This document shows, in pieces, positions 8,140 through 32,315 of a stretch of DNA of 64,000 nt. The DNA is taken from contig NZ_DS996841.1 in assembly GCF_000156655.1 (NCBI RefSeq), positions 358,821 to 422,820 of the forward strand, in the 5' to 3' direction. The DNA comes from Holdemanella biformis DSM 3989. GTDB taxonomy: Bacteria > Bacillota_I > Bacilli_A > Erysipelotrichales > Erysipelotrichaceae. Both the position numbers and the translations under genes were made by a program. How positions within the stretch are numbered: position 1 is the first letter of the stretch; each line of letters starts with the position of its first letter. Under the pieces are notes generated by a model that saw nothing but the letters and a program-made list of their open reading frames with translations, had not been told where the DNA came from and ran no database searches.

Positions 8140-8421
8140 CTACTTTCCTTCTTGTAACAACCCTTCAATTTGTTCATTAAAAGATTTAACAAATTCTCTA
8201 AAATATTCAGGATCTTTCATGGCATCCTTTTTAATGTCTGCCAGTTCCTTGTCTGAAATATCTAAATAATGATCTATCATCAACATTTCATCTTCTACCC
8301 ATTCGGCATATGTCGCATAATTTTCTTCTTTTATAGAGGATGGTTTTTCATAATTAATTTCTTTATTGGCACATCCTGTAAAGAAAAGTAACACAAACAT
8401 CAAACCTAATACTTTTTTCAT
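8140..8421 (-). CDS. small lipoprotein, helical
   Basis: This 93-residue protein has a textbook lipobox (LLFFTGC at residues 11-17). The mature part is short, charged and helical (EEWVEDEMLMIDHYLDIS region), with no family I can name. It lies 16 bases after the metalloprotease gene and 10 bases before the other lipoprotein, so the three are likely one transcript. Confidence 0.6.
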   Translation of the reverse strand: MKKVLGLMFVLLFFTGCANKEINYEKPSSIKEENYATYAEWVEDEMLMIDHYLDISDKELADIKKDAMKDPEYFREFVKSFNEQIEGLLQEGK

Positions 8422-9910: not shown

Positions 9911-12900
9911 TTATTTTTTTAATAATACTTTCGCATCTCTCATCAATTTATCTAACACTTCGATATATAATTCAATCCATCTTTTTAAATCGTCTTTTGA
10001 CAACCTGATTGATTCTTCAGCATTAGCATGAGATACTTTATTTCTATACATCTTTAAACCTCTATGTATAAATAACAACTTATAAAACTCATTTACATAA
10101 TCACTATTATTTCTCAACGCCTTCACTAAAGGTATATTAGTTCTTAAATAATATTTATTATATTTAACACTATTATTCCTTCTATCAATATAACCTGTTT
10201 TAATCCCTTTTGAGCAGCTTTGATAAATTGAAAACTTACAACTTTCATAGTATTTCGTAGGACTCATACCATAATTTCTATGATCAAGTATTTCACGTAG
10301 AATTTCATTTTCTATCGCATGTTTACTTTTACCTTGTACAGCCAATTTTTCATCCATACCACAAAAAAATTCTGTATAACCATCAAAATATGACATTGAA
10401 TCCCGTTCTTCCATTTCGCGTTCCACTGTACCTTCTTTTACCACCCTAACCTGGCCATCGCATTCGAATTTAAACAGTGATAAATTAACCCAATCATCAA
10501 AAGCTTTTTTGAAATCATTTACTCTTTCCGGATAAGAGACAATTCCCTCATTAATAAGAGATTCTATCATTACACTTTCAATTAACGTTAGTGTCTGCTG
10601 CAACAAATCCTTGTCTAAGCACCATTTCAATTGTGCCGGTAGATAGTTCCTTTCTATTCCTAAAAGATCATATCGACTCTGTTCCCCATTTTTATTCTCA
10701 ATTTTATCAATATAAACAACATAATTGTTACTAATTAATTGTTTTACTATTCCAAAATTTTTTTCATATGAAACACAATTAACTTTATCAGCTAACTCTG
10801 AAAGTCTGTCTGAGAATAGTCCAGCTTGATTCAATGAAATACCATCTGAAAACATGTTGATTGCATCTACTAAAGCTTGATTTTTTTCATGCAATTCATT
10901 ATCGTTAGATTCTTTTTCCATTTCTTCTTCAACATATTTTATTAATCCATTTGAACGACCAAAAGACAAAAATTCTTGCATACCACCTACAAAATCGTAA
11001 ATATTTGAAGTTCTCTTTACAGATTTAATAGTTCCTATTGAATCTGGATATTCTATTGAATAAACATCTTTCAATTCAATATTATTAATATCCTTTATCA
11101 ACATCAAAATGGCATCTAGAACAGTTGCAGTTTCACGGAATCCACCATGAAGATCAACATATAAATTCACTTTATATTTTTTTGTTAATTGAACCAACTC
11201 TGTCGTAAAATTATATAATGCCATACTTACATCTGCATCATTTATTTCTTTTTCTACAGGAATATCAATTATATCTTCTTTATCGATAATTTTTGAACAT
11301 CGCTCCTGAAAATACTCAAAAGCTGTATATTCTTTATACTCATCTGAATAATATATACTCTTGTCATTACCATTCGTTAAATACGTTTTAGTATTTTTTG
11401 ATTTATACGTATTTAAAGCATATATATAATCTAACTTTTCATTATTTTTAGCCAATTCTTCAACCAACATTTTTGGAACTGGTTCTAACTGATATACATA
11501 CGAACCTTCTGCATTTCCTTGATTAAACAAATCTTTGATGGAATTATCTATCGCATACTTTGAAACTTGTTTTTCTCTTGAAATTATACTCATCGCCAAT
11601 AATAAAACATTCTTTTCATTTGGATTACTCTTAATATCTTTTACCAATTCCTGTAATTTATTCTCTTTTTCTTGTACCTTTAAAAAGTCTGGGTGCATTA
11701 TAGGATCTAATTTTTCTTCAACTTGTTTTTCAACTTCTTTGACATTGATGCTACCTGTTTTTGTCGTAACACGATTTCTTGAATCTACAATTTCTACTTT
11801 GTAGTTTAATTCACCACCATGCTCAGGTGGATCTGTAATAAACTCTTCACCAAAATAAGTCTTGCCTTCTAAACTAGTTTGAATGGATTTAATGGTTGCA
11901 CCACAAGATCCATTCACATGGATTTTGAATTTTAATCGATCTTTATTTGGTTCAAATTCATCTAATTTTGAACCATCTTCCTTCACAACTTCAACCAATT
12001 CAATAACTGATTTATAAGTTTCTGGAATAATAACACGAATATTTGAAGTAGTATCCGAGCCAATAAATTCTCCATTATAATATGTATCTAATCTAAAGGA
12101 TACCTTTCCTTCAGTTTGATTCGGTAAATCATTCGCAAAACTTAATGGAATTGTATATGCATGTTCAAAAGAATTTTTTCCACTATCAACAGAAGCAATC
12201 TTTTCATCTTTTCCATTCCAATTCACATAGATTTCATGCGAAAACTCATTTGATTGACTTTTACCTAAAATTGTGATGATTTCATTTATATCACATTCTT
12301 GTTTATCTACATTGATTTTTGAAGGTGCTTTTTCAATGAATTTAAATGATTCCAACTTATCCTTAATACAATCCAATTTTGTATTCACAATCCACACAAG
12401 ATCATTTTTTGAATTTGAAATGTTTTCCAACAAGCAATCTAAAGAAGCTTTTGAAGTTTCTTCTTCTAAATCCAAATCATCCAATCCTTTGACAACAATC
12501 AATCCATGTTGATTTTGAAGATTATCCATTTCAATCAATTTTCTAACATCGACTTCTTCAACAAACGTTGAATAAATGACATCATAATTTTGAGAATTTA
12601 AAAGTCTTGCGTAATCTCTCGCAAAATCTTTAACTAAAGAATCATTATTCGTTTCAATACATAAGTTATACGTATTTCTTGAAGCGTCATGCTCTTTATT
12701 GGTCTGGACAAGATTCAAAATTGTTTTAATACTTGTATACTTCGAATATTTATCTTCAATATCCTTTTGAACATCTTCGCTCAATTCTCTTTTCCAATAT
12801 ACTGGAATCGATTCAGGCGTCACATTTCCATCTTGATTTAGTTTCATTGATTGACGAATCAAACGTTTTATTATGCCTTCTACAAAAGCTTCTCCTTGTA

Positions 12901-13480
12901 AGTCTGCCCTATGATAAACGGTACGAATCCATTCTTCATAAGCTGGTAAAAAAGTCTTTTCATCATATGTTAACCCACTATTTTCCAAGGCATAGTCAGC
13001 TCCTGAAATAATTTCAGAAATTGAATATGGCTTCAATCGAATCACAAAATCAAAAGTATTAAAGAAATCATTTGAATATTGTTTGCGTAATACATCCCCG
13101 TGTTCTTTCGTTGTTAAAAAAATCGTAAAGATATGCGAATCCTTTAAATTTTGTTTTAACAATTCCCACTTGTCCTTATTGATTTCATTTTCTTCAATCG
13201 CATCAATCACAACACAATTTATAGTTTTCGTCATCAAATATTGTTTTAAAAATAAAGACAATGGTCTTCTTGCAGGATAAGAAATTAGATTCATCCCCTT
13301 CAAAAGTTCAATGACATTTTTAGAAAACTCCTCCAATTTCAACACATCATCCGATTCAATATATAAACTCATCTGATTTGTTCCACTATTTCTTAATAAA
13401 TTTTCAAGTTCGACGACTTGTTCATGAACTTCCGGATTCAACATGCCCTTAAATACTGAATCCACCATATTATTTTCCAT
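9911..13480 (-). CDS. giant CARF-HEPN effector with AAA-like and Ig-like N-terminal half
   Basis: This 1189-residue protein appears to be a Csx1/Csm6-class ancillary RNase of type III CRISPR. A CARF-like Rossmann domain spans about 615-835 and carries DLHGGFRE at 776-783, resembling the 'DxTHGxR' loop of Csx1-type CARF domains. A C-terminal HEPN domain has RNKVSH at 1146-1151 (the R-X4-H RNase motif). The first ~400 residues look like two degenerate AAA-type modules with no Walker A: VIDAIEEN and FDFVIRLKPYSISEI in the first, GLIVVKGLDDLDL in the second. Two beta-rich Ig-like segments (about 405-490 and 491-585) follow. It has its own promoter and terminator. Binding of cyclic oligoadenylate and RNA cleavage are inferred from the motifs. 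Confidence 0.75.
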   Translation of the reverse strand: MENNMVDSVFKGMLNPEVHEQVVELENLLRNSGTNQMSLYIESDDVLKLEEFSKNVIELLKGMNLISYPARRPLSLFLKQYLMTKTINCVVIDAIEENEINKDKWELLKQNLKDSHIFTIFLTTKEHGDVLRKQYSNDFFNTFDFVIRLKPYSISEIISGADYALENSGLTYDEKTFLPAYEEWIRTVYHRADLQGEAFVEGIIKRLIRQSMKLNQDGNVTPESIPVYWKRELSEDVQKDIEDKYSKYTSIKTILNLVQTNKEHDASRNTYNLCIETNNDSLVKDFARDYARLLNSQNYDVIYSTFVEEVDVRKLIEMDNLQNQHGLIVVKGLDDLDLEEETSKASLDCLLENISNSKNDLVWIVNTKLDCIKDKLESFKFIEKAPSKINVDKQECDINEIITILGKSQSNEFSHEIYVNWNGKDEKIASVDSGKNSFEHAYTIPLSFANDLPNQTEGKVSFRLDTYYNGEFIGSDTTSNIRVIIPETYKSVIELVEVVKEDGSKLDEFEPNKDRLKFKIHVNGSCGATIKSIQTSLEGKTYFGEEFITDPPEHGGELNYKVEIVDSRNRVTTKTGSINVKEVEKQVEEKLDPIMHPDFLKVQEKENKLQELVKDIKSNPNEKNVLLLAMSIISREKQVSKYAIDNSIKDLFNQGNAEGSYVYQLEPVPKMLVEELAKNNEKLDYIYALNTYKSKNTKTYLTNGNDKSIYYSDEYKEYTAFEYFQERCSKIIDKEDIIDIPVEKEINDADVSMALYNFTTELVQLTKKYKVNLYVDLHGGFRETATVLDAILMLIKDINNIELKDVYSIEYPDSIGTIKSVKRTSNIYDFVGGMQEFLSFGRSNGLIKYVEEEMEKESNDNELHEKNQALVDAINMFSDGISLNQAGLFSDRLSELADKVNCVSYEKNFGIVKQLISNNYVVYIDKIENKNGEQSRYDLLGIERNYLPAQLKWCLDKDLLQQTLTLIESVMIESLINEGIVSYPERVNDFKKAFDDWVNLSLFKFECDGQVRVVKEGTVEREMEERDSMSYFDGYTEFFCGMDEKLAVQGKSKHAIENEILREILDHRNYGMSPTKYYESCKFSIYQSCSKGIKTGYIDRRNNSVKYNKYYLRTNIPLVKALRNNSDYVNEFYKLLFIHRGLKMYRNKVSHANAEESIRLSKDDLKRWIELYIEVLDKLMRDAKVLLKK

Positions 13481-14593: not shown

Positions 14594-14597
14594 ATTT

Positions 14598-15494: not shown

Positions 15495-16419
15495 AAATCA
15501 ATCCTTTACAAGTATCATATTTCCCTGGAAAACTATAGAGCTTGGCAGAATTAACTGCTGGTGTCGATCCTTTATAAGTATCATATTTCCCCAATAGAGG
15601 GCATGATTTTATCAGATTATCACATCCAAGTGTCGATCCTTTATAAGTATCATATTCCCCCCCTACAATTAAATCATAGATTCTATACTGTTCGAGTGTC
15701 GATCCTTTATAAGTATCATATTTCCCTGAACCACTTTCATGGATACGCCGCTAAGCGGTAAGAGGTGTCGATCCTTTATAAGTATCATATTTCCCATTGC
15801 TAAGTTTGGTTGTTATCATGGAGAATATATTTTTAAGTGTCGATCCTTTATAAGTATCATATTTCCCAGAACTTTGGGATACACAATATGATGCTTTAGT
15901 ACTTGTGTCGATCCTTTATAAGTATCATATTTCCCATACGAACGTATCCTAAAGGAAGGAGACTTTGTAGAGTGTCGATCCTTTATAAGTATCATATTTC
16001 CCATAGATTTTCATCGCATATACCGCCAGAAGGCGAAGAGAAAGTGTCGATCCTTTATAAGTATCATATTTCCCTAGGGTTCAAACCGAGAATCGTAGCT
16101 GTAGGTATTTGCAGGTGTCGATCCTTTATAAGTATCATATTTCCCTTTTTCTGTTTTTTATGATGCGATACGTGCCAATTAGTGTCGATCCTTTATAAGT
16201 ATCATATTTCCCATTACAAACATTAAAAGAGTTGTTTTTTCAAGGAGAAGCAGTGTCGATCCTTTATAAGTATCATATTTCCCATTTAGATTTAACAAAA
16301 TTAATGAAGGCTCTAGAGGGTGTCGATCCTTTATAAGTATCATATTTCCCTTGTTTGATTATGACCCTTGCTGTTCTGATTCTAACATGTGTCGATCCTT
16401 TATAAGTATCATATTTCCC
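15495..16419 (-). CRISPR. CRISPR array 1: 14 repeats, 13 spacers
   Basis: 31-base repeats begin at 15495 (decayed), 15561, 15630, 15696, 15765, 15837, 15905, 15972, 16044, 16115, 16182, 16253, 16320 and 16389. Plus-strand repeats start GTGTCGATCC and end CATATTTCCC; the copy at 15630 has a T-to-C change near its end. Spacers are about 35-41 bases. The decayed copy is at the left and the conserved leader at the right, so the array is read on the minus strand. The crRNA 5' tag would then end ATCGACAC. At position 26 (plus strand) the repeats have T where array 2 has G. Confidence 0.98.
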
Positions 16420-16565
16420 CTTACTAAATATAGCACATTTTGGGCTTTAGTTGATAAAAATATTGAAAAATGGCTGAATTTAGCCTATTTTTTTCGACCA
16501 CCTCGGTATTTTGTGGTGTTTTTGGTGCTCAAAATCCTTCAAAATAGGTCGATGGTCGAAAAACG
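16420..16565 (-). promoter_or_regulatory. leader of array 1
   Basis: This AT-rich leader shares long blocks with the leader of array 2, beginning TTACTAAATATAGCACATTT next to the first repeat. It contains an inverted repeat, TTTTCGACCA (16491-16500) and TGGTCGAAAA (16553-16562), and a minus-strand extended -10 (TGCTATATT, 16427-16435) placed to start transcription at the first repeat. Confidence 0.8.
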
Positions 16566-16576
16566 TAGACTTTTAG

Positions 16577-18244
16577 TTATTGGTTTACTGGTTTTAGAAT
16601 CATAAAGCCAAGTCTTTGTATTTCTATATTTGGATGGATTGTATCGTTATTGATAATATTGATAAATTCATTTTGCATTGGCAACATTGTATTAAGAGTA
16701 TACTCTTTTGTGTTGACTACGATATAGAGTGTTTCATTTTCATTAGCTCGTTTCATAATTAATAATTCATTATGATGGATCCATTCAATGCTTCCTTCAT
16801 TAGCTAATACTGGATGTTCTTTTCTGAGTTTTATTAATAATTGAGTCATATAATAAATGTCTTCATAAGACTCCTTTGGTTCTTGCCAATTTGTTGGTCT
16901 ACGATTATCTGGGTCTGAACCACCTTCCATATATCTTTCAGTACCATAATAAATGGATGGTGTTCCATAGAATGTTAGTAACAACAACAAGCATAGTTTC
17001 ACTTTATCTTTATCATTTTGACAAATGTTACGAATACGTGGTGTATCGTGTGAATCTAATAGTGGCATAGATGATTTTAGTTGTTTTAAAGTATAAGAAT
17101 GCATCAACTCATCTATACTACTTCTATATTTCCAAATATCATGATTTGGATCACACACAAACGCAAGTATAGCTCTAGAAACAGCGTAGTTTGTAACTCC
17201 ATCTAATGCATTATTACTAATCCATTCTGTCGCATTATGCCATATTTCTCCAACGATATATGTTTCTTCTTTATAGTTATGAATATAATTATTCAATCTT
17301 AGTAACATGCCATCACTAATTTCATTGGCAACATCGAGTCTCCATGCATCCACACCTAGTTCCATCCATTTCTTAACAACTTTATTAATAAAATAATCCG
17401 CTGTTTTAAAGTTTTCTGTTTCAAACTTTGGCATAGAACGAATCATCCCAAACATCTCATATCTTAAATGACCCTGTTTATCTTCTTCAATTTTAAACAT
17501 AGGCCAATACTCAGATTTTTTTCGTTTTTCTATAGCATCTTTAAACATTTCATTCTCATCACTACAATGCGTAAATGAAATATCCAACATAACCTTCATA
17601 CCCAAATCATGGGCTTTGTCACACAACTCTTTAAAATCTAATTCTGTTCCCAATTCAGGATCTACCTTCATATAATCAATCACATCATATTTATGATAAG
17701 AGTGTGCATAATAAATAGGATTTAAATACAAACCGTCAATACCAAGTTCTTTTAAATAATCCAATTTATCAATTACACCCCTCAAGTTTTTCTTGAATCG
17801 AGTAGGCATGATTTGATACCAAACTACATTTCCAACCCACTTAGGCTCCTTAAAAATATTAGACTCCGTAATATACGGAATGAAGAACATAGAAAGATCA
17901 TCATCACGATAATTCTTTGTGAATCCACTTTCACTAAACTGCAAACATTCATAGTCATCATAGATTTTAAAATAATACTTTAACCTATGAGATTCACAAG
18001 GAAGTACAACACTAAAATAATACGAATCAAATGTTTCTCCTGTACGCTTCATATCCACTACATAGTTTGGCCAAACTAAACCATTTGAACCTTCATATCG
18101 AATATATGGGTCATTATATACAACTTCAACCCTACGAATATCCTTCCCTGTTTTTAAACGAATACAAACATGACATTGATCAATCAAATCACAATCAATC
18201 TTTTTATAACGCCCATTAATATGAACAATTTCATTCGTTCTCAT
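16577..18244 (-). CDS. GH13 alpha-amylase/cyclomaltodextrinase-like enzyme in the cas operon
   Basis: This 555-residue protein has a CBM34-like N-terminal domain (about 1-120) and a GH13 barrel. The catalytic triad is visible: nucleophile D304 in DAWRLDVANE, acid/base E333 in YIVGEIWHN and D400 in LLDSHDTPR; the barrel motif VMLDISFTH also appears. The length and domain order fit neopullulanase or maltogenic amylase-type cytoplasmic enzymes acting on short maltodextrins. No signal peptide is seen. Its ATG is two bases after the stop of the small Rossmann-like gene, and it is the last gene before the array 1 leader. It therefore appears to be co-transcribed with cas genes, which is odd for a sugar enzyme. 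Confidence 0.85.
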   Translation of the reverse strand: MRTNEIVHINGRYKKIDCDLIDQCHVCIRLKTGKDIRRVEVVYNDPYIRYEGSNGLVWPNYVVDMKRTGETFDSYYFSVVLPCESHRLKYYFKIYDDYECLQFSESGFTKNYRDDDLSMFFIPYITESNIFKEPKWVGNVVWYQIMPTRFKKNLRGVIDKLDYLKELGIDGLYLNPIYYAHSYHKYDVIDYMKVDPELGTELDFKELCDKAHDLGMKVMLDISFTHCSDENEMFKDAIEKRKKSEYWPMFKIEEDKQGHLRYEMFGMIRSMPKFETENFKTADYFINKVVKKWMELGVDAWRLDVANEISDGMLLRLNNYIHNYKEETYIVGEIWHNATEWISNNALDGVTNYAVSRAILAFVCDPNHDIWKYRSSIDELMHSYTLKQLKSSMPLLDSHDTPRIRNICQNDKDKVKLCLLLLLTFYGTPSIYYGTERYMEGGSDPDNRRPTNWQEPKESYEDIYYMTQLLIKLRKEHPVLANEGSIEWIHHNELLIMKRANENETLYIVVNTKEYTLNTMLPMQNEFINIINNDTIHPNIEIQRLGFMILKPVNQ

Positions 18245-18246
18245 GT

Positions 18247-18606
18247 TTAATACTCCATAAATTTAATAAATTCAAATTCACTTTCACGACGCGTATTCTT
18301 GTTTTCATCCACAAACTCAATCGTTCTTCTCTCGCTTTGAGCTGCAACAACACGAATACCATGCTTCTTCAATAATACAATCATTCTATATGTAAAGATG
18401 AATTCTCCTTGTACCATCACAACCACATCTGAATATTTTTGAATCTTATTAAAATATTCTTCAACCAATTCATCCAATTCTTCACTAGAAATATGTGGAG
18501 AAACAGCCGGAAAAGGTATATCCACTATTTCTCCATATTGTCTAGCCGCTTCTTTTTGTGCTTCAGACCATCTTGTAGATGTATGATTCGATAAGTTAAT
18601 AAACAT
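18247..18606 (-). CDS. small Rossmann/CARF-like CRISPR-associated protein, copy 1
   Basis: This 119-residue protein is roughly half identical by eye to the gene at 27693-28052. Conserved blocks are MFxNxSNH, IVD(I/V)xFPA, the strong VMVQGEF(I/V)FTYR and GIRVV(A/S)AxSER. The predicted beta-alpha pattern is Rossmann-like, resembling the small CARF-type proteins of type III loci. A role binding or cleaving cyclic oligoadenylate is a guess. ATG 18606 was chosen over 18630 because AAAGGAG precedes it and it gives the same length as the paralogue. It follows the cas7-insertion gene. Confidence 0.65.
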   Translation of the reverse strand: MFINLSNHTSTRWSEAQKEAARQYGEIVDIPFPAVSPHISSEELDELVEEYFNKIQKYSDVVVMVQGEFIFTYRMIVLLKKHGIRVVAAQSERRTIEFVDENKNTRRESEFEFIKFMEY

Positions 18607-18617
18607 CTTAAGCTCCT

Positions 18618-20462
18618 TTAAAATTTCCAAACATTTTCGCCATTCTTTTTCTTAAAGTTTTTATTGTTATTGTAAGAATTACCACCATTTACAGCTTGTG
18701 GCAAAGAAATGTCATTCTCTAAAATTTTTGGTAATGCCCTATTAATTCGCATTTTTTCACGAGTATCCGGCATTCTTCTTCCACCATGATTATTTTGGAA
18801 CCATTCAAATCCTTTATCATGATCTGATGTTTTTGGATAACAAATTTCATATTGTTTAGGCACAGACTTTAATCCTGCAATCTTTTCAAATTCTTTCTTT
18901 ACAGAAGGACTTAGTCCAGCACTTTCATAAGTGACATTCGAATAATCATAAGAAGAAACATCATATTTTACCTTATCTTGATCAAATACAATTTTTCTTT
19001 CTTCTACACCACTTACACTACAAGTAACACTACCTAAACCTAATGGTTTTCCCATACCTAGTTTTAAGCCAAGACCATCTTTTCCTGTATTTAAAATATA
19101 AATCAATTGATTCAATTGTTTTTTAGAAATTCCATCAAAATACAACTCCCCATTAAATGTAATTCCTTCTTTAATCGGACGAATTGTTTTATTTAACTTT
19201 GTTCTTTTCACATTATTAAAACTTATAGATTCAGGATGATGATGCCAATAATATTTTCTACCTCTTAAACTACCATCATATAAATGAATCTTGCCCCTCT
19301 CAATATAGTAATCATATGTCCAGAAATCCGCATTTTTAGGTTTAACCAAGTAAAAATCAACATTCGAAATCTTAGGAGAACTCAAATTATCAATCGTTAC
19401 AAAATCCTTTACATAATAAGATTTATTTGAATCAAGTTTTTCAACATACATATCCGAAAAACGAATACGCGAACCCTTCGCATTATCTCCAATCTTTCCA
19501 AATAAATCACAGGCAGGGCACAATTCTTCTTCGCATGGTGTAAACACACCTGCATAATCCGATAAACTTCTACTTGAAACTTCTTTTGAGAATGTGGCTG
19601 GCGCAATACTTACAATATCATTCCCAACGACACTGTAATTAACTGGAAAATATGCTTCCTTATCGCCTTTAATAAACTTCTTAAAGCTGCTTAGATAACT
19701 CTTGTATGCATCTTCATCATTTGATTTAATTGAAGGCTGTTCAATATAAGAAGTCACGATTGCGTCCATCATATTTTTTACTGCAGCTGCTTCCATATTT
19801 TTCTTCACTACTTTGTTACTTGCTTTAAACGCATGGAAATGTTCTTTCCTTACACCAAGTCCCCATTTAATTACATAGCCACATGTATTATAAGCACCTT
19901 CATTTTTAGAAAATTTACGAATCATTCCACGACCATTTGAAGCTTCATGATTAGAAAAATAAATCTTATCTCCATCTTCAAACTTCTTCATCTCTTTTGG
20001 ATGCTTAGCACTTTCTCCAATTCGTATTGAAATTGCTTCTACTAATGATAAGCTGCCATCTTCTTGAATATGTAACAATCCAGGTTTAAATTTAGCACCA
20101 ATTCTTTTTACAGGATAATCATCATTTAAAACCCCCATACAAGAATCGGTTAATGTTTCATATACATTACGAACCAATCCACGCATTTCACTACCAGGAA
20201 CTACTGGTTCATAATATTTTCCACTTACGTTTTTTTCATTGGATAAATCTGTATACGAGAAAAAATCAAAAGACTTATGATCTGCTTCTTTACAGCCAAA
20301 CGCATTATCATTTGATGAATTAGGAATGAACAAAGGTGTTTTAGTTGTGATTGAATAATGAATCACGCCATAATGTTTATCCTCATCCAAATAGGCTTTT
20401 GCCTTTTTGTTTGGAAGAGAAATAAAGTTATATGGATTTACGAAACGATTACTATCTGCCAT
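18618..20462 (-). CDS. cas7: Cas7-type RAMP protein with insertion (TIGR03986-like), type III-D
   Basis: This 614-residue RAMP protein has an N-terminal Cas7 loop with VVPGSEMRGLVRNVYE (about 87-102), matching the 'PGSSlKG' element of Cas7 proteins. A long middle insertion includes CEEELCPACDLFGKIG, a possible zinc-binding cysteine cluster, and GSRIRFSDMYVE. The Gly-rich RAMP loop GLKLGMGKPLGLGSV lies towards the C-terminus. The tail is basic and asparagine-rich. It is the single large 'Cas7-insertion' backbone subunit expected in III-D2 complexes. Its ATG overlaps the csx19 stop by one base. Confidence 0.8.
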   Translation of the reverse strand: MADSNRFVNPYNFISLPNKKAKAYLDEDKHYGVIHYSITTKTPLFIPNSSNDNAFGCKEADHKSFDFFSYTDLSNEKNVSGKYYEPVVPGSEMRGLVRNVYETLTDSCMGVLNDDYPVKRIGAKFKPGLLHIQEDGSLSLVEAISIRIGESAKHPKEMKKFEDGDKIYFSNHEASNGRGMIRKFSKNEGAYNTCGYVIKWGLGVRKEHFHAFKASNKVVKKNMEAAAVKNMMDAIVTSYIEQPSIKSNDEDAYKSYLSSFKKFIKGDKEAYFPVNYSVVGNDIVSIAPATFSKEVSSRSLSDYAGVFTPCEEELCPACDLFGKIGDNAKGSRIRFSDMYVEKLDSNKSYYVKDFVTIDNLSSPKISNVDFYLVKPKNADFWTYDYYIERGKIHLYDGSLRGRKYYWHHHPESISFNNVKRTKLNKTIRPIKEGITFNGELYFDGISKKQLNQLIYILNTGKDGLGLKLGMGKPLGLGSVTCSVSGVEERKIVFDQDKVKYDVSSYDYSNVTYESAGLSPSVKKEFEKIAGLKSVPKQYEICYPKTSDHDKGFEWFQNNHGGRRMPDTREKMRINRALPKILENDISLPQAVNGGNSYNNNKNFKKKNGENVWKF

Positions 20463-20833
20463 TATGATTTCACCTCCTGTAAACGATAATTTGTGATTGT
20501 TAATAAATCTTCATCATTATATTGAATATAATTCACTACATTGACTCGATTTGATGAAGATGTTACTTCTTCATCTAAATTAGATTGAACATATGTTGAT
20601 TCCACATATACATCTTCATGTTCAATGGAATCATCAATCACACATTCAATTTCTTTTAATCTTGACTTGATATAACGATACTCTTTGTTCTCATCAAACA
20701 AATGCATTTCTAATAATTTATCTTCTAAATACGCATCCTTTGTCAATTGATCTTTTGTATATTCCTGAAATACCATTCGATCAATATATAAAGCGTACAT
20801 TATCCCTTTTTCAGGCGCTAAATTAATGTTCAT
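20462..20833 (-). CDS. csx19: Csx19-like small subunit (TIGR03984-like)
   Basis: This 123-residue acidic protein lies between two RAMP genes and overlaps both. The pattern LEDKLLEMHLFDENKEYRYI resembles the 'L.E.rLF....E.rlwR' core of the TIGR03984/Csx19 family, a marker of type III-D loci. It is shorter than most members. The name rests on a weak pattern plus gene order. A divergent Cas11-like small subunit is the alternative. Confidence 0.55.
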   Translation of the reverse strand: MNINLAPEKGIMYALYIDRMVFQEYTKDQLTKDAYLEDKLLEMHLFDENKEYRYIKSRLKEIECVIDDSIEHEDVYVESTYVQSNLDEEVTSSSNRVNVVNYIQYNDEDLLTITNYRLQEVKS

Positions 20834-22091
20834 AATCCATCTCCTTATATTTCACGATAGATGATGCAATGTAAGCATCCTCTTTATTTTCTTCACCATC
20901 AATTGTCAATGGTCCATTTGCTTCAAAAATACCTCTACCAATCGATGTCTGTCCCCCAACAGCTAAGAATCCATTCTGTAAATCTTTAACTGCCAATAAA
21001 AGAATTCCAATAATCCAATCCATATTTGGATTTTCTTTATTTATAGAAAGTTTTAATGTGAAAGTCCCATTCACATATGTCTTTTCCTTATATAAAGCTC
21101 CATTGCGAGCTGAATTTTCAAAACGAGAAATACCCGTTCTAGTCATCTCCAAAGCTTTTGCCCCTTCAATCACCATTTCATCCACAATAACACCTGAAAT
21201 ATGTGCATCTTTACCACTCACAAACCCAAACATTTCATCAATCATTTTATTTGGATATAAACCATAAGAACTATCCTTATCCAATTCCTTAATAATTTCT
21301 TTAATTCGATGACGCAAAGCACCCATGATACTTGTTCCTGGAATGACTGGACATCCATGATCTGTCATATGCTCAAAATCAGGAGCACCTTTTCTTACCG
21401 CATACTTACGAATAGAAATACCACCCTTTAAACGTAACGGAACTTCAATACTTACCATGTGACCTTTTGTTGAATAATCTAAATCATATGCTTTAACATT
21501 TTTCCAGAATGTTTCTTTGAAACAATCTTTATATTCTAAGAAATTATTCTTTGTGAATTCAAGCATCTTAATTTGGTCAATATCAATAATTCCATAACCT
21601 CTTGTTTTATTGCTTCCCAAACGAATCTCTTTTAAATGAATTCCATTAAAGATTTCATTTAATGCACCTACCAACAACTCTTCATTATCCTTTTCACGAA
21701 TCGTTAGTTCAATATAGAAATAGCCTTTTGAATTACCCTGAAGAACTTCAAAATCAAATTTAGCTCCTTCTTTTGTAATCTTGTTATCATCCAAAGCTAC
21801 ACTGTCTCGAATATCATTTTCTACCTTATTGAATTTCAAATCCGAAATGAATACTGGACTCATTTTACCATCTTCATCATTCGCAAAACCAAAGATGTCA
21901 TTTCCATTATTTTTAGATTGAACATACGCTCTAAATGCACCCGCAATTGAACTTCCTGAAATAAATGGTTTTCCATCATAATCACGAAGCACATCACTAT
22001 CTGTCATTCCTTCTTGTCCTGAAGAAACATTCACAGGAGAAACAAACAATAGTTCAACTCTATATACAATTCTTTTTATTACTGAATTCAT
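20823..22091 (-). CDS. cas7: double Cas7 RAMP fusion (Cas7-2x), type III-D2
   Basis: Two Cas7 domains are fused in 422 residues. Domain 1 (about 1-190) has MTDSDVLRDYDGKPF, FISGSSIAGAFR and the Gly loop LGSNKTRGYG. Domain 2 (about 205-395) has APDFEHMTDHGCPVIPGTS, MGALRHR, SARNGALY and VGGQTSIGRG. By alignment with the Csm3 loop holding its catalytic Asp, D31 of domain 1 and D238 of domain 2 are candidate target-RNA cleavage residues. The tandem Cas7 fusion is characteristic of III-D2/III-Dv. It ends 11 bases inside csx19 and starts three bases after the larger fusion gene. Confidence 0.85.
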   Translation of the reverse strand: MNSVIKRIVYRVELLFVSPVNVSSGQEGMTDSDVLRDYDGKPFISGSSIAGAFRAYVQSKNNGNDIFGFANDEDGKMSPVFISDLKFNKVENDIRDSVALDDNKITKEGAKFDFEVLQGNSKGYFYIELTIREKDNEELLVGALNEIFNGIHLKEIRLGSNKTRGYGIIDIDQIKMLEFTKNNFLEYKDCFKETFWKNVKAYDLDYSTKGHMVSIEVPLRLKGGISIRKYAVRKGAPDFEHMTDHGCPVIPGTSIMGALRHRIKEIIKELDKDSSYGLYPNKMIDEMFGFVSGKDAHISGVIVDEMVIEGAKALEMTRTGISRFENSARNGALYKEKTYVNGTFTLKLSINKENPNMDWIIGILLLAVKDLQNGFLAVGGQTSIGRGIFEANGPLTIDGEENKEDAYIASSIVKYKEMDYEH

Positions 22092-22094
22092 TTC

Positions 22095-24125
22095 CTATTC
22101 CCCCGCTTTCACTCTATACTTCAATTCACGAATATATGAAGAATACAACTTGTCAAACTTCTTAGTTTCACTCCAAGAAAGTTTAAAGTCAGCATATTCT
22201 TTCTCTTGAATTTCTTTTTCAATATCATCTAAAACATCCATTGGAAGTTTTTTCATCAAAGAAACACACTTATCTTTATTGGCACTTTCTAATTGTTCAA
22301 ATTCATGCAACATATCCTCATAATTTGACTTTGTTCTAAACAATAAACGCATCTTAGATAGAGCTGGATTTAATTGATCAGAACTCATATGATTATTCGC
22401 AACCACTTCACGAACTCTTTCATCCATGATTTCTTCAAATTCTTTTTCTAACAAAGAATTGATTACTGTCAAATCCACATTTGAATTCTTAATATTCTTA
22501 TGACCAAACGGTTTATATACACAAACACAATCCGTATCTTTTGTCTTTTCTAAAACAACTTCTCCAAAACCTTCAGAAACTCTTTCACCCACAAAATAAG
22601 AATGATTGTAGCTAGCCTTAAAACCAGTATCCGAATGAATTTTCATACAAGAAGATTTAGATAAGGCTGAAAAGATTTGTTTCTTTCTTCTCCAAGTCAC
22701 ATTAAATCCACCAATCGCATTATAAGATAAGAATGGACTTTCAATTTCAATATCATCCACGCCAAAATAGGCATTTAAATAATCCTTCAATACATTTACA
22801 TCGGCCACCAACATACCATTGTCGTTGTATAAAATCACGTCGGAAGCCAATAATAAATCCGCATCATGAATCAATGTCTCTTTATTTCTTGCATCTTCGA
22901 CAGAATCTAAAGTGAAATCAATCTGACCAAATTCACTGTTTCTACCATATCCCATACGAACTTGTCCAAGTTTTGAAACAGAATCCATAATTTGTTTGGC
23001 TGTTTCCCGATTTGCGTAAATAAAGCCTTTAAAAGTCTGTGCCTCACAAATACTAGCCAATTGATAGAATTGTCCTTCCCTACTTGTAGCACGACCAATC
23101 GACTTATCACTAGGACGTTGGTGATGGTATGAAATCTGTTTTTCAACCGACAACACTTCATTCTGATCTGACATATAATCAATATTCGCTGGTGTACGTT
23201 GCTCTTTATCATTATCATTCTTGAAATACATCATATCGACAATTTCCATTTTGCCATCCACATAAGACTGATTCTTGATTTTCTGTAAAGAATTTCTCCC
23301 TGGAAGTGAACGATTTCCATCCAATGAAACATAGGCATTGGAAACCACAATATCATTCATAACCTTTTGGTAGGCATCATTTCCCATACTTCGTGCAATC
23401 AAACCTAAAACCTTACTTCCCACAATATAGTCTTCTGTTTTAGCCTGATTCCCTTGAGCTGATTTACAAATCAATGGAGAATGTAAATGAATCGTATATG
23501 AAATCTTATTTTCATCCTTCAATTCATTTTCTTTAAATAAAACATGATCTACAGATGTAGCTAAACTATTTTCAACCTTGAGTTCAACCAAACCCAAACC
23601 ACGAGTTCTAGATACACCCATGTGTTTTACCATGGAAACTGCATTCTTGAATTCTTCAGCATAATCATTATTTTTTAAATCCACATCTGCATGGAAAATT
23701 AAACCTTTTTTCAAGACACGCAACGTTCTTAAACTATTCTCAATAGCCGTACCCGTATTTGTATCTACAGCGGTTTGTGTTCTTAAATATGTAAAAAGCG
23801 ATAATACTTTTTGTTGATTGACAAAATCAGCCTCTTCAAATTGATTCAATCCATTCACGATTTCCTCATAATCCTTTAATTTCGCATTTGAAATTGTGAA
23901 GGCTGAGGCATCGCTTCCTTCTTTTCCAAAAATCGCATTATAATGTGGCAACAAACCCATTTCATATAGTTCCAAAGCTGCTTCACGAATACATCCCTTA
24001 AGTCGCTTGGCAGGAATATATGGAAGTCCATAATCATCATAAACCACATCTGTATCTACGGTTGTATTGTATACTTCACCTGAGTAGCAACATAAATCAC
24101 TCAGTAATTTAATTGAAATTTCCAT
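22095..24125 (-). CDS. Cas7-Cas5(Csx10)-Cas11 fusion, type III-D2
   Basis: This 676-residue protein has three visible parts. Residues 1-190 form a Cas7 RAMP domain (VDTDVVYDDYGLPYIPAKRL with candidate catalytic D24, GVSRTRGLGLVEL loop). Residues 205-530 form a Csx10/Cas5-like RAMP (IVGSKVLGLIAR, RTPANIDYM, LGQVRMGYGRNSEFGQI). Residues about 550-676 are an all-helical, charged tail like Cas11. The order Cas7-Cas5-Cas11 matches the fused subunit of the III-Dv complex studied in Synechocystis. The tripartite reading is from motifs and length; an ordinary large Csx10 is the alternative. Confidence 0.75.
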   Translation of the reverse strand: MEISIKLLSDLCCYSGEVYNTTVDTDVVYDDYGLPYIPAKRLKGCIREAALELYEMGLLPHYNAIFGKEGSDASAFTISNAKLKDYEEIVNGLNQFEEADFVNQQKVLSLFTYLRTQTAVDTNTGTAIENSLRTLRVLKKGLIFHADVDLKNNDYAEEFKNAVSMVKHMGVSRTRGLGLVELKVENSLATSVDHVLFKENELKDENKISYTIHLHSPLICKSAQGNQAKTEDYIVGSKVLGLIARSMGNDAYQKVMNDIVVSNAYVSLDGNRSLPGRNSLQKIKNQSYVDGKMEIVDMMYFKNDNDKEQRTPANIDYMSDQNEVLSVEKQISYHHQRPSDKSIGRATSREGQFYQLASICEAQTFKGFIYANRETAKQIMDSVSKLGQVRMGYGRNSEFGQIDFTLDSVEDARNKETLIHDADLLLASDVILYNDNGMLVADVNVLKDYLNAYFGVDDIEIESPFLSYNAIGGFNVTWRRKKQIFSALSKSSCMKIHSDTGFKASYNHSYFVGERVSEGFGEVVLEKTKDTDCVCVYKPFGHKNIKNSNVDLTVINSLLEKEFEEIMDERVREVVANNHMSSDQLNPALSKMRLLFRTKSNYEDMLHEFEQLESANKDKCVSLMKKLPMDVLDDIEKEIQEKEYADFKLSWSETKKFDKLYSSYIRELKYRVKAGE

Positions 24126-24139
24126 AACCTTAACCCTTT

Positions 24140-25660
24140 CTATAATTGAAGATCCATCAATTCACACGCATCGTACCATACGTTTTTTTCTTCTTCTAAA
24201 CGATCAAATTCATTATGTTTACGACTCTTTAAGAAAGCCACTTCCTTTTTGATTTCATTATTACCCTGCGGAATCACATTACGAATTTCTTTACCCAAAC
24301 TTCTAGGAAAGTCCGGACTACATAATATACTCAATTTTTCTTCTAGATTTGAAACAGAATACTTTTCATTCTTCACATTCAAACCTTTATCATTTTCTAC
24401 ACTCACATAATAAGGACGCTGAATAAAAGATTCATTGTCTACTACATAATGTTTATCCCTATAATCATCTAGATTCGAAGCATTCACATTTGTACACAAT
24501 TGAAAATCAAAGAAGTTTCCTACAATCTGATCAATACCACTCATTGAACACTCCTTACTCTTTGCCCTTTTCTTTGCACTGTCACAACATGCTTCAGCCA
24601 CCATATATGCATCTGAGAATGGGAAGTGTGAATTAAAGAAGGCGATACCTGCACATGCGGTAAAAATTGGATTCTCATCTTCTTCTGTTTGAATAAAATC
24701 CGTTTTCTTTTCATTTAACTTTTCCAAGAAATATTTCACAGCCGGAATAGCTAACCTTGCATTACATACAAATGTAATATCATCACCAGCCACAACAATC
24801 TTTCTATATTTCATCGTATCCGTTTTAAATTTGTCTTGCTGACTATCCATCCAACTTGTCATTTCATCAAACGTATCTTTAAAAGTCTTATCAATACCAC
24901 TTGATAAACGGCGCATTTTTTGAATAGCTGACTTATAATCCTTTACATCACGCATTAAGTTCATAATACGCTTTCCTAATGAGTTACCATCAACGTGAAT
25001 CAAGGCAAGTGTACTATTATCACCCTTTTGTGTAACCATATTATCAAAGATTTTTTCTACATTCTTTTCATCAACAGAAGCACGCTTTAATAAAGATTCT
25101 GTACAATGATATTCCTTATCTGCCACACCCGTAATTGGCATGCCCGTAACTGTATCTGTTGCCGTAAATGAGAAAGCTCCAACAGGCTTTGAGATTGGCA
25201 TATGCGCTTTGATTCTACGCATTTCAATATTGATCTTTCGATAATCTTCTTTATAAGAATCCGTCTTTTCAATCACCGCAATTGCCACATTTAATGAATA
25301 TGTTTTCTCTAAAACATACTTGCCCAAATATTTATTTACAGCTGAACAAATGGAACCATTTCTAAACAAAACATAGGCATTTCCACCACCGACAAACATA
25401 ACCTGCATTAATACTTTAGAATCATTTTTAATAAACGCATCGGCAGTCGCTTCATTATGCCAATCCACTAAATACAAGTCTCTTTCTTCTGTTGACACAC
25501 GATTCTTTACATAACTCTTTAATCCATTGATGATAATATCATCCACTAACTTAGAAGCTCCGATAATTTCTTTTACCGCATTCGTTTTAAAAATATAGCT
25601 TTGAATCCCACGAATGTCATACATTGCCAAAACTTCTTTTCCTAATAATTCTTCTCTCAT
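24140..25660 (-). CDS. cas10: Cas10 large subunit without HD domain
   Basis: This 506-residue protein starts directly with the first palm domain (YDIRGIQSYIFKTN, GASKLVDD), so the N-terminal HD nuclease of many Cas10 proteins is absent, as usual in type III-D. The second palm has HVDGNSLG (222-229) and VAGDDITFV, where AGDD (291-294) replaces the common GGDD. It continues with ACAGIAFFNSHFPF and CCDSAKKRAK. The two metal-binding Asp residues of AGDD and D224 remain, so cyclic oligoadenylate synthesis is plausible. It overlaps the cas2 stop by four bases. Confidence 0.88.
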   Translation of the reverse strand: MREELLGKEVLAMYDIRGIQSYIFKTNAVKEIIGASKLVDDIIINGLKSYVKNRVSTEERDLYLVDWHNEATADAFIKNDSKVLMQVMFVGGGNAYVLFRNGSICSAVNKYLGKYVLEKTYSLNVAIAVIEKTDSYKEDYRKINIEMRRIKAHMPISKPVGAFSFTATDTVTGMPITGVADKEYHCTESLLKRASVDEKNVEKIFDNMVTQKGDNSTLALIHVDGNSLGKRIMNLMRDVKDYKSAIQKMRRLSSGIDKTFKDTFDEMTSWMDSQQDKFKTDTMKYRKIVVAGDDITFVCNARLAIPAVKYFLEKLNEKKTDFIQTEEDENPIFTACAGIAFFNSHFPFSDAYMVAEACCDSAKKRAKSKECSMSGIDQIVGNFFDFQLCTNVNASNLDDYRDKHYVVDNESFIQRPYYVSVENDKGLNVKNEKYSVSNLEEKLSILCSPDFPRSLGKEIRNVIPQGNNEIKKEVAFLKSRKHNEFDRLEEEKNVWYDACELMDLQL

Positions 25661-25932
25661 TGTGTTCTCCTCTCTTCAATTATGTTTAAATCCCTTGAAT
25701 CATTTCCCAATTTATCTTTATAAATCTGCTTGTTGTTGTAACAATAATAAAATTGAACACTATCCTCACTCAAAATAATCTTCTTTACCTTTTCCTGAAG
25801 TTCCTTCATTTGATGGGGTGTAAGCTCTCCTTCAAATACCGATTTCTGTACATGAAACAAGTATTGTCTTAATAGCTTTTTCAACTTGTCACAACGCTTC
25901 TCATTCACATCATATGTACATATCACATACAT
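25657..25932 (-). CDS. cas2: Cas2 adaptation endonuclease subunit
   Basis: This protein has about 91 residues from ATG 25932 (a longer TTG start at 25947 overlaps cas1 more). MYVICTYDVNEKRC carries the conserved first-strand Asp, and QKSVFEGELT and VQFYYCYNN match the Cas2 ferredoxin fold. It partners with Cas1 in spacer integration. The gene sits between cas1 and cas10. Confidence 0.92.
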   Translation of the reverse strand: MYVICTYDVNEKRCDKLKKLLRQYLFHVQKSVFEGELTPHQMKELQEKVKKIILSEDSVQFYYCYNNKQIYKDKLGNDSRDLNIIEERRTQ

Positions 25933-25940
25933 AATAAAAC

Positions 25941-26930
25941 CTACCAATTCATAAGAAACGGATTATATTCCGTACTCTTCTCTCTAATATAATTTGACAA
26001 TTCATGCACTTCTTTGGAAATCAATCTTTTATAAGAATAGTCAACTCCATGAATTTGTATTGTCTTATTTAATTGTTTATCAAATTCCTTCACAAAAAAT
26101 GAAGCTCCTTCTTTATTTAAATAACAACTTCCATCCACACCATATTCAAACATATCCTTACGTATTTGATTTTTTCGAATCAATCTAAAAATCAATCGAT
26201 CTACCAGAACTGGTTTTAATATATCTGCCAAATCATATTGTAAAGAATCCTTTGACTTACTCATACTATGAATAAAGCTTATAGAAGGTAATAAGCTGCT
26301 TCTATATAACACAGATAAATAGTGTGAATATAACAGTGCATATCCATAGCTCATCATCGCATTCATTGCATTCTTTGGTGGGCAAACCATTCTTTTTTCA
26401 AATACAAAATCCTGATTCCTTGTAATTTCATCGAAACCAGAATAATAAAATTGTTTCGCCATAGCCTCCAGTAGTAACAATTCACTAATTGATTCTTTAG
26501 ATTTGATTTTATCTATAATCTTTTCAATTTCATTTATCTCATTAGTTAAATTTCTACCCTTTTTCTGATAATACTTTAAAACAGAAAGACAATTATGCAG
26601 ATTGGCATATGTCATCTGTTTAGCGATATATAAACGTGTTTCTTCATTTTCATACGCATGTACCTGTTTTACTAAACAACTACCATCATAATGTTGTTTT
26701 GGAAGAAACTGACCAATATAGTTCGCATTATGTGTAAAGAAAAATATAGAAATACCATACGCATTCAATAATTCTAGAACTCTTTTATTCAATGTAATTT
26801 CAGAAAAACAAATAATTAAATCCACTTGCCTTATGGGAATAGGAATCGTTTCATCCTTAGTTACACAAGCTAAAGAGAAATCTTTTCTTTTTAGTGTTCC
26901 ACTCTTATATAGATAGATCGTTTTTTTCAT
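25941..26930 (-). CDS. cas1: Cas1 integrase
   Basis: The conserved metal ligands of Cas1 are visible (numbered from the upstream ATG at 26942): E159 in LLEAMAKQFY, H225 in FIHSMSKSKDS and D237/D240 in QYDLADILKP. Length of about 330 residues is normal. I prefer ATG 26930 (MKKTIYLYKSG) because GAGGTG sits a few bases upstream. The gene overlaps the cas6 end. It integrates new spacers at the leader-proximal repeats of the two arrays. Confidence 0.95.
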   Translation of the reverse strand: MKKTIYLYKSGTLKRKDFSLACVTKDETIPIPIRQVDLIICFSEITLNKRVLELLNAYGISIFFFTHNANYIGQFLPKQHYDGSCLVKQVHAYENEETRLYIAKQMTYANLHNCLSVLKYYQKKGRNLTNEINEIEKIIDKIKSKESISELLLLEAMAKQFYYSGFDEITRNQDFVFEKRMVCPPKNAMNAMMSYGYALLYSHYLSVLYRSSLLPSISFIHSMSKSKDSLQYDLADILKPVLVDRLIFRLIRKNQIRKDMFEYGVDGSCYLNKEGASFFVKEFDKQLNKTIQIHGVDYSYKRLISKEVHELSNYIREKSTEYNPFLMNW

Positions 26931-27642
26931 GGCACACCTCAATCATGCCAAAGCCACAAGAGCCCTTTGAAGAAATTCCTGAATTATAAATCAAATGTAG
27001 TAAATTTGGTGAAACCTCAATTTTCATCTTCAAATGATAAGCTTTGTAGAAACAATCCTTATACTTAACCATTCTTTCCTTTACATTCTTTACTTCTAGA
27101 ATTTCAAATACTTCCTGCTTATAATTCAAATCATACGCATACACTTTATTTAATAGATTCCGTCGTATCAATTGTTCAAACTCTTCTTGGATGGGAGAAT
27201 AATACGTTGTGAAATCATCTTGCGTAGAATACACACTAATCGGTGATAAAGTTTTGATCCAAACCTTTTCTACACCTTGTATACGATTTTCTTTAAGAAT
27301 ATGAATATCTTTGATCATGACCTTTTGATTCAACATAGTTAAATATTTGTGTGAAGAACAATATTCATAAATTCGTTCAATAAAATAATCATCCATGGCA
27401 CTCACATAGAAACTGAAATGATCTTTAAAAATCATAGATTTATTTTGAATTGTATAACTTCCAACTAAGTTACTAAAGACAAACATCTTATAGATTTTAT
27501 CATCTACTTGATAACCCACATCATGATAAAAAGCACCATCACTATCATAATTCAACATATTATAAATTGTTCCTTGAAGAATATGATTATAGCCAATGGG
27601 AATACTAAAATTCTCTTTGTATAAATCTATCTTTAACCTCAT
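26905..27642 (-). CDS. cas6: Cas6 crRNA-processing endoribonuclease
   Basis: This 245-residue RAMP-fold protein has the C-terminal Gly-rich loop SGISSKGSCGFGMIEV that identifies Cas6. It would cut pre-crRNA from both arrays within the repeat, leaving a tag ending ATCGACAC. It heads the cas operon behind a promoter at about 27669-27696 and overlaps cas1 by 26-38 bases. Confidence 0.9.
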   Translation of the reverse strand: MRLKIDLYKENFSIPIGYNHILQGTIYNMLNYDSDGAFYHDVGYQVDDKIYKMFVFSNLVGSYTIQNKSMIFKDHFSFYVSAMDDYFIERIYEYCSSHKYLTMLNQKVMIKDIHILKENRIQGVEKVWIKTLSPISVYSTQDDFTTYYSPIQEEFEQLIRRNLLNKVYAYDLNYKQEVFEILEVKNVKERMVKYKDCFYKAYHLKMKIEVSPNLLHLIYNSGISSKGSCGFGMIEVCHEKNDLSI

Positions 27643-27668: not shown

Positions 27669-27696
27669 ATTATAACCCATGCCCTATGAAAATCAA
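27669..27696 (-). promoter_or_regulatory. promoter of cas6-cas operon
   Basis: Minus strand: -35 TTGATT (27691-27696), 16 bases, -10 TATAAT (27669-27674). It overlaps the stop codon of the upstream 119-residue gene and lies 27 bases before the cas6 ATG. Confidence 0.55.
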
Positions 27697-28052
27697 TAAT
27701 CCACAAAGTCAATAAACTCAAAAATACTATGCTTATGGATCACATTATTCTCATCCTTGAATTCCTGACACACACGCTCACTACGAGCTGAAACAACTCG
27801 AATACCACTAGCCTTCAGCTTACCTACTAACCTATATGTAAAGACAAACTCACCTTGGACCATCACAACATCCGGATAAAGACCCATAATTCTTTCATAA
27901 TACAATTCAACCAATTCATCATACTTATTACTATCATAATCCTTATGAATTGCAGGAAAAGCAACATCTACAATACTTCCATAACACAAAGCACACTCTT
28001 TTTGTTTATCTAACCACAATTCACTAGGATGATTTGAAACATTCACAAACAT
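27693..28052 (-). CDS. small Rossmann/CARF-like CRISPR-associated protein, copy 2
   Basis: This 119-residue protein is a paralogue of the gene at 18247-18606 with the same length and the same VMVQGEFVFTYR core and SER motif. The ATG is preceded by GGAGGGG. It lies between array 2 and the cas6 promoter, so the two copies stand at opposite ends of the cas block. The sequences have diverged to about half identity, suggesting an old duplication and separate roles. Function is not established. Confidence 0.65.
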   Translation of the reverse strand: MFVNVSNHPSELWLDKQKECALCYGSIVDVAFPAIHKDYDSNKYDELVELYYERIMGLYPDVVMVQGEFVFTYRLVGKLKASGIRVVSARSERVCQEFKDENNVIHKHSIFEFIDFVDY

Positions 28053-28194: not shown

Positions 28195-28841
28195 CACATA
28201 GTCCTTTATAAGTATCATAGTTCCCTGGTATTGCAAGGAACGTTTGGGCCTGGTGAATATCAGTGTCGATCCTTTATAAGTATCATAGTTCCCCGTGGTG
28301 ATGGCATTGGTTGCTGGTACATTAGGGCTAATGTGTCGATCCTTTATAAGTATCATAGTTCCCTTACTAGAAAACGGACATAATTTATGGAATTCTCCTA
28401 AGTGTCGATCCTTTATAAGTATCATAGTTCCCGAAAGAACTTTAGAAGAAATATTTGCCGCTAGAAGTGTGTCGATCCTTTATAAGTATCATAGTTCCCA
28501 AAACTCAGCAAGATGTATTTGAATACATCAAAAAAGTGTCGATCCTTTATAAGTATCATAGTTCCCTAACGGCTATTGGCAAGCTTTGGATATCAACGAA
28601 GATAGTGTCGATCCTTTATAAGTATCATAGTTCCCGTTTCGGGAATCCAAGAGGTATGTCTATCAGACATGATAGTGTCGATCCTTTATAAGTATCATAG
28701 TTCCCATAGTTTGAATACAAACAAAGTGGAAGGTGCTCAAGTGTCGATCCTTTATAAGTATCATAGTTCTCTTGTCAAACATTGCGGAGAGGCTCTTGAA
28801 AAATAGGAGCGTGTTGATCCTTTATAAGTATCATAGTTCTC
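28195..28841 (-). CRISPR. CRISPR array 2: 10 repeats, 9 spacers
   Basis: 31-base repeats begin at 28195 (5' part decayed), 28263, 28333, 28402, 28469, 28536, 28605, 28675, 28741 and 28811. Plus-strand copies start GTGTCGATCC and end CATAGTTCCC. The two leader-proximal copies end GTTCTC, and the outermost also begins GTGTTGATCC. Spacers are about 35-39 bases. The leader is at the right, so transcription is on the minus strand towards the cas operon. Confidence 0.98.
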
Positions 28842-28990
28842 TTACTAAATATAGCACATTTTGAGATTTTGTTTTAAAAAATGTTGGAAAAAAGCTGATT
28901 TTGGCATATATTTTTCGACCACCTCGCTTTTTTTGAGTATTTTTTGTGCAATTTTTACTTCAAAATAGGTCGATGGTCGAAAATTTTATT
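28842..28990 (-). promoter_or_regulatory. leader of array 2
   Basis: This leader is homologous to that of array 1 over about 140 bases. It starts with the same TTACTAAATATAGCACATTT block, holds the extended -10 TGCTATATT on the minus strand (28849-28857) and the same inverted repeat, TTTTCGACCA (28913-28922) and TGGTCGAAAA near 28974-28983. Confidence 0.8.
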
Positions 28991-29062
28991 AGATTGATTA
29001 AAAATATTAGATAAACTAAAGCAGGAAATGCCTACTTTAGTTGTTGATTTCATTTACTTTAT

Positions 29063-32158: not shown

Positions 32159-32177
32159 ATTTCCTCCTATTTCTTTC

Positions 32178-32303
32178 CTATAAATTCATATTCCCATCGT
32201 ATAAACGATTTAATCTCTCTTCACTTTTCTCATCGACTAAAATCGAATCAATAAACATAATGGAAATCATACAACCAACTATCAACAAAAATACTTCAAA
32301 CAT
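32178..32303 (-). CDS. 41-residue membrane protein between the CAP genes
   Basis: A GAGGAGG site precedes an ATG encoding a one-helix protein (FEVFLLIVGCMISIMFIDS) with a charged tail (DEKSEERLNRLYDG). It resembles in plan the three small proteins at 35436-36260. The hydrophobic anchor plus short polar tail suggests a membrane partner of the CAP surface proteins. Confidence 0.5.
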   Translation of the reverse strand: MFEVFLLIVGCMISIMFIDSILVDEKSEERLNRLYDGNMNL

Positions 32304-32315
32304 TCTCTATCCTCC

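Follow-up and report, generated by a model that had tools for sequence, protein, structure and literature searches.

A complete type III-D2 (III-Dv) CRISPR-Cas system is almost certainly encoded in the Bacillota chromosome of Holdemanella biformis DSM 3989, within the 64,000-nt stretch of contig NZ_DS996841.1 analysed here (the window, to which all positions refer). The assignment follows from the subunit profiles, the sequence matches to III-Dv entries in the PDB, the fold of a full-length chain, three catalytic aspartates and a gene order like that of plasmid pSYSA. It follows as well from the position of its Cas10 in a tree, beside loci of the same architecture, and from arrays with repeats, spacers, leaders and trailers. 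The locus well illustrates a known system whose architecture is widespread among gut Firmicutes. An earlier note, made from the sequence, had read the subunit set in this way and had valued the locus as a useful divergent model in the Bacillota; the reading stood up throughout, but the idea that a Bacillota example is unusual was not supported, as relatives turned out to be abundant in that phylum (see below).

Biochemically, III-D2 (III-Dv) complexes are defined by one copy of each subunit, a fixed 37-nt CRISPR RNA (crRNA), target cuts spaced 6 nt apart and the production of cyclic oligoadenylate (cOA). In sequence they are recognised by a Cas10 with a palm GDD but no HD domain, a fused Cas7-Cas5-Cas11 with a helical Cas11 domain at its C-terminus, a fused Cas7-Cas7 (Cas7-2x), Csx19, a Cas7 with an insertion and three Cas7 aspartates, all of which are found here. 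The five effector open reading frames (ORFs) lie on the minus strand, from 25660, the start of cas10, to 18618, the end of the Cas7-insertion gene, and the ORF list bears out the coordinates and lengths first proposed for them. Cas10 (506 residues) matches PADLOC model PDLC02057 (Cas10d; E 3.3e-113), and its best sequence match in the PDB is 8s9t_C, the Synechocystis III-Dv Cas10 (E 7.8e-24). The proposed lack of an HD domain was confirmed: a Pfam scan of Cas10 gave no HD match, and phmmer aligns the protein from residue 9 onward with the HD-less Synechocystis Cas10 from its residue 18 onward. The palm motif lies at residues 291-294 and an HVDGN motif at 222-226.

The most telling subunit is the 676-residue protein, in which a Cas7 part (about residues 1-190) is followed by a Cas5/Csx10 part (about 206-525) and a helical, Cas11-like part (553-674). 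PDLC02091 (Cas5_IIId) spans residues 1-672 with positions 1-701 of its 709 (E 1.9e-117), and a sequence search of the PDB matched nothing but the III-Dv Cas7-Cas5-Cas11 chain 8s9t_A. An AlphaFold2 model built with 38 relatives as input reached a mean predicted local distance difference test score (pLDDT) of 86.3 and a predicted template modelling score of 0.78. When this model was compared with the PDB by Foldseek, the top four matches were the III-Dv Cas7-Cas5-Cas11 chains 8s9t/u/v/x_A, aligned over the whole chain (about 800 alignment columns, template modelling scores of 0.72-0.74 by query length, E 1e-37 to 1e-40). Cmr3-like or Csm3-like chains gave partial coverage only.

The remaining subunits agree with this picture. 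The 422-residue protein, thought at the outset to be a double Cas7, has two RAMP domains; PDLC02111 (Cas7_IIId) matches over residues 2-408 (E 5e-109), and 8s9t_D is its best PDB sequence match (E 3.8e-13). The 123-residue protein is recognised as Csx19 by PDLC01117 (E 5.6e-34), while its TIGR03984 match (E 1.8e-6) falls short of the family cut-off. The 614-residue Cas7 with insertion belongs to TIGR03986 (E 1.7e-113) and also matches PDLC02109 (Cas7_IIId; E 7e-128) and NF041225 (E 6e-37). In the Synechocystis III-Dv complex, target RNA is cut by D26, D33 and D246 (PMC11026444); alignment equates D26 with D24 of the fusion, and D33 and D246 with D31 and D238 of Cas7-2x. The residues D24, D31 and D238 are invariant across all sequences of the aligned sets.

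Profile, sequence and fold thus agree on the subunit set of Synechocystis PCC 6803 III-Dv (PDB 8S9T/U/V/X; plasmid pSYSA) and on the kinship with III-E that had been suggested. The two systems share the five effector genes, their order and fusions, the HD-less Cas10 and the three cleavage aspartates. They differ in that identity is only about 20-25%, the Cas7-Cas5-Cas11 has 676 residues here and 791 in Synechocystis, the Cas7-insertion protein 614 versus 795 and Csx19 123 versus 186, the Cas10 palm is AGDD here and GGDD there, and the window has two csx20 genes. The split III-D systems of Anabaena, Planktothrix, Tychonema and Pseudanabaena likewise have Cas10, Cas7, Cas5 with a C-terminal extension, Cas7-2x and Cas7-insertion, and Csx19 is annotated in Anabaena and Planktothrix; unlike the fusion here, however, their first Cas7 is a gene of its own, of about 220-230 residues. 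Among PDB sequences, III-E Cas7-11 (gRAMP) is closest to the Cas7-insertion protein (E 1.5e-18, with 8s9t_E at E 7e-6). III-E is nevertheless a single polypeptide without Cas10 or Cas5, whereas the window encodes five proteins, Cas10 among them.

Several observations weigh against the III-D2 assignment. When the C-terminal bundle of the fusion was predicted alone (pLDDT 89.7), a fold search of the PDB gave nothing significant (best E 1.1, with Cas11 absent among the matches listed). The Cas10 palm is AGDD rather than GGDD. No protospacer was found: the spacers had no match in 50,697 phage records, and four spacer cores searched as exact patterns in viral contigs gave no match either.

The first of these results, together with the direct profile comparison with the Synechocystis C-terminus, where the match was very weak, would fit a helical C-terminus unrelated to Cas11, with some other small subunit in the complex. 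We consider this improbable. The III-Dv whole-chain match takes in Cas11, residues 553-674 form a six-helix bundle in the AlphaFold2 model, and in hhalign the bundle pairs with the C-terminal ends of split Cas5-Cas11 proteins, from cyanobacteria and Chloroflexi among others (E 7e-8, probability 95%). Small helical bundles are difficult for Foldseek. The Cas11 label is given because of the whole-chain fold, the position of the domain, its profile match to the split proteins and the III-Dv structure.

Could the locus instead be broken or decaying, its function gone? The AGDD palm, the short Csx19 and the absence of the fusion from a sister genome of the same genus (G213) point that way. Yet every ORF is intact, the catalytic residues are retained, there are two arrays with near-perfect leader-side repeats, and AGDD is shared with the Cas10 proteins of two relatives (loci L016 and L023), which makes decay very unlikely. 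Scarcely credible, finally, is a III-D1 system whose separate, ordinary Csx10 and small-subunit genes have been mistaken for a fusion: the Cas5 part does match the Csx10 family TIGR02674 (E 3e-12), but its score of 46 bits falls short of the cut-off of 177, and a single 676-residue frame, the fold matches already described and the recurrence of the same fusion in 62 loci of the Cas10 tree set refute it. An ordinary Csx10 as best fold match, with no Cas11-like C-terminus, was the outcome that the earlier note had named as fatal to its reading, and it was not seen.

Profiles and array calls also upheld the proposal that Cas1, Cas2, Cas6 and two arrays are joined to the effector genes. Along the minus strand, a leader and a 10-repeat array are followed by csx20a, cas6, cas1, cas2 and cas10, then by cas7-cas5-cas11, cas7-2x, csx19, cas7-insertion, csx20b and an alpha-amylase gene, and last by the leader of a 14-repeat array, that array, and genes for a NERD-domain protein, a HEXXH membrane protein and an 1189-residue CARF-HEPN protein (Table 1). 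The repeats of the two arrays are 31 nt long and one base apart, and the spacers measure 35-41 nt. The one-base repeat difference, the degenerate far-end repeats and the similar leader-side sequences indicate that both arrays are read on the minus strand, as are the cas genes.

Table 1. Features of the type III-D2 locus (window positions)
Feature	Position	Strand	Basis
cas10 (III-D2 type, 506 aa)	24140..25660	-	PDLC02057; best PDB match 8s9t_C; motifs
cas7-cas5-cas11 fusion (676 aa)	22095..24125	-	PDLC02091; 8s9t_A; AlphaFold2 model and fold search
cas7-2x (double Cas7, 422 aa)	20823..22091	-	PDLC02111; 8s9t_D
csx19 (123 aa)	20462..20833	-	PDLC01117
cas7-insertion (614 aa, TIGR03986 family)	18618..20462	-	TIGR03986; PDB matches
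csx20 copy b (127 aa, predicted cA4 ring nuclease)	18247..18630	-	PDLC01397 E 2.2e-34
csx20 copy a (119 aa)	27693..28052	-	PDLC01397 E 5.1e-29
cas2	25657..25947	-	PF09827 E 2.2e-20
cas1 (Cas1b-like)	25941..26942	-	TIGR03641 E 1.4e-89, TIGR00287 E 4.8e-76
cas6 (245 aa)	26905..27642	-	TIGR01877 E 2.9e-31; PF01881 E 1.2e-23
CRISPR array, 10 repeats	28195..28855	-	repeat GGGAACTATGATACTTATAAAGGATCGACAC; degenerate trailer repeat at 28195
leader of 10-repeat array	28856..29000	-	resembles other array's leader by eye
CRISPR array, 14 repeats	15495..16433	-	repeat GGGAAATATGATACTTATAAAGGATCGACAC; degenerate trailer repeat at 15495
CARF-HEPN effector, probably cOA-activated (1189 aa)	9911..13480	-	CARF2--CARF_HEPN, PF05895

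Some neighbours deserve mention. The alpha-amylase family gene (16577-18244) begins 2 bases past csx20b and ends next to the second array's leader; its link to CRISPR is not obvious. Between that array and the CARF-HEPN gene, 13565-15389 encodes the NERD-domain protein and the membrane-anchored protein with a HEXXH metalloprotease motif. At 29063-35411 lie genes for two tandem coiled-coil secreted proteins of 1031 residues with near-identical start regions, the first with a CAP-domain family match and the second resembling a paralogue of the first. A second type III locus, with a 779-residue Cas10 frame and RAMP genes, occurs about 122 kb away on the same contig (G000:C39:255493-258964).

The signalling side of the locus may be less ordinary. 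The two Csx20 proteins, encoded one at either end of the cas operon, are identical at 63 of 119 residues (53%); PDLC01397 recognises both as predicted Csx20 ring nucleases beside a type III locus, and a match to NF040559 falls under the family cut-off. Csx20 breaks down cyclic tetra-adenylate (cA4), and more than one ring nuclease occurs in only 10 of 242 ring nuclease-positive loci (PMC12409355); paired ring-nuclease genes in a single locus are unusual. The 1189-residue protein, counted in the system because of its position, consists of an N-terminus of about 380 residues with no family match, an Ig-like DUF859 domain (387-490) and a CARF-HEPN region (about 620-1189) with the HEPN motif RNKVSH. 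It matches the PADLOC model CARF2--CARF_HEPN (E 5.7e-23) and PF05895 (E 5e-15), and a sequence search of the PDB with it gave no match. The DUF859 domain is otherwise known from siphovirus proteins. An 803-residue protein of Fusicatenibacter (L025:7017-9428) is a shorter relative of the CARF-HEPN protein, with a short N-terminal stretch in common.

The Synechocystis III-Dv complex cuts target RNA at three sites, synthesizes cOA and activates Csx1 (PMC11026444). By homology with that complex, and from the work on Csx20 (PMC12409355), from which we infer assembly, cleavage, signalling and ring-nuclease activity, the system should work as follows. Transcripts of both arrays would be processed by Cas6, and one copy each of Cas10, Csx19, Cas7-Cas5-Cas11, Cas7-2x and Cas7-insertion would assemble on a crRNA. 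In a matching viral transcript, D24 of the fusion and the two Cas7-2x aspartates, D31 and D238, would make as many as three cuts, while the AGDD palm of Cas10 would produce cOA. This cOA in turn would activate the CARF-HEPN RNase and be degraded by both Csx20 ring nucleases, so that the 1189-residue protein is the likely signal target and the two Csx20 proteins the likely off-switch. Perhaps the locus is a signalling-side variant on an ordinary core, with two diverged Csx20 proteins bracketing the operon to tune the signal and an RNase recruited or gated by its extra N-terminal and phage-type Ig-like domains, a doubtful but possible reading.

When genome contigs were scanned with an alignment of Cas10 sequences, at least 537 relatives came up, of which the best 80 were kept; single-protein and alignment scans found no such Cas10 in viral contigs. 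Most of these best 80 are from Bacillota, and nearly all Bacillota loci among them with a readable gene carry the fusion; the isolates include Roseburia inulinivorans, Fusicatenibacter saccharivorans, Robertmurraya, Virgibacillus, Paenibacillus terrae and Blautia parvula. The nearest relatives among the 80 are those of R. inulinivorans DSM 16841 (L023) and F. saccharivorans (L025), with Cas10 51-54% identical (51% for R. inulinivorans). Both share with the window the same fusion, a csx20 adjoining cas10, and cas6; the gene layout around the core differs, as does the repeat of the L025 arrays. In a Cas10 tree of 84 rows, in which 62 loci have the fused protein and 9 the split form (leaving aside a stripped-down clade described below), the window groups with the loci of Roseburia and Fusicatenibacter, which share its architecture (99% support in the Shimodaira-Hasegawa-like approximate likelihood ratio test, SH-aLRT). 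A literature search on type III-D in Lachnospiraceae found no paper.

Within the host's own order the fused protein is scarce: 6 of 316 genomes matched, some in the Cas7 part only. A genome of the same family (G210) has a Cas10 just 32-33% identical and distant in the tree, which suggests horizontal transfer. Did the fusion arise more than once? The quick tree needs several changes, as separate origins in Synechocystis and the Bacillota would imply, but a single origin with all fused rows held together, Synechocystis included, was not rejected (approximately unbiased test, p 0.45), and we therefore do not claim convergence. Synechocystis sits on a long branch whose placement is unsure.

Ten of the best 80 loci fall together in a single sister clade (SH-aLRT 100%): L058:6379-11892, L069:8234-13729, L081:121-5558, L087:4756-10550, L065, L067, L068, L075, L076 and L057. 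Their cassette runs MATE transporter, csx20, cas10, degenerate cas7/5/11, csx19, and its hosts are Bacillota and two Bacteroidota metagenome-assembled genomes (MAGs). Where the contig permits, csx20 and csx19 are present in these loci, together with a Cas10 whose GDD is intact and a Cas7-Cas5-Cas11 relative of 572-614 residues (split over two frames in L057), with no Cas7-2x or Cas7-insertion. In alignment the catalytic aspartate is gone from the Cas7 part, as are its KRxKGxxRE stretch and its RTRGLG loop. A MATE-family gene lies upstream of csx20-cas10 in 9 of 9 loci with a long enough contig, and in L076 no csx20 is seen between it and cas10. No Cas7-2x or any RAMP match was found in the seven whole clade genomes searched, with Roseburia positive as control; Cas1 occurs elsewhere in some clade genomes, and no CRISPR array was seen in the flanks of L058 or L069. 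These genomes are mostly MAGs, in which absences could reflect missing contigs, but this is unlikely because the absence is repeated in seven of them. The cassette resembles a signalling module built on Cas10 but lacking the guide-RNA backbone, and a literature search for Cas10 with MATE and Csx20 found no paper. In L087, a Bacteroidales MAG, 12-nt repeat blocks (TTTAACCTTAAC) at 6053-6211 and 8173-8349 flank cas10.

The MATE-csx20-cas10 clade could be a case of Cas10 signalling that works without a guide RNA. The fused III-D2 effector itself is more than an oddity of cyanobacteria: gut Bacillota commonly carry it, culturable hosts such as R. inulinivorans among them, and these provide many sequences in which to study the step from a multi-subunit III-D complex to the single-protein III-E effector.

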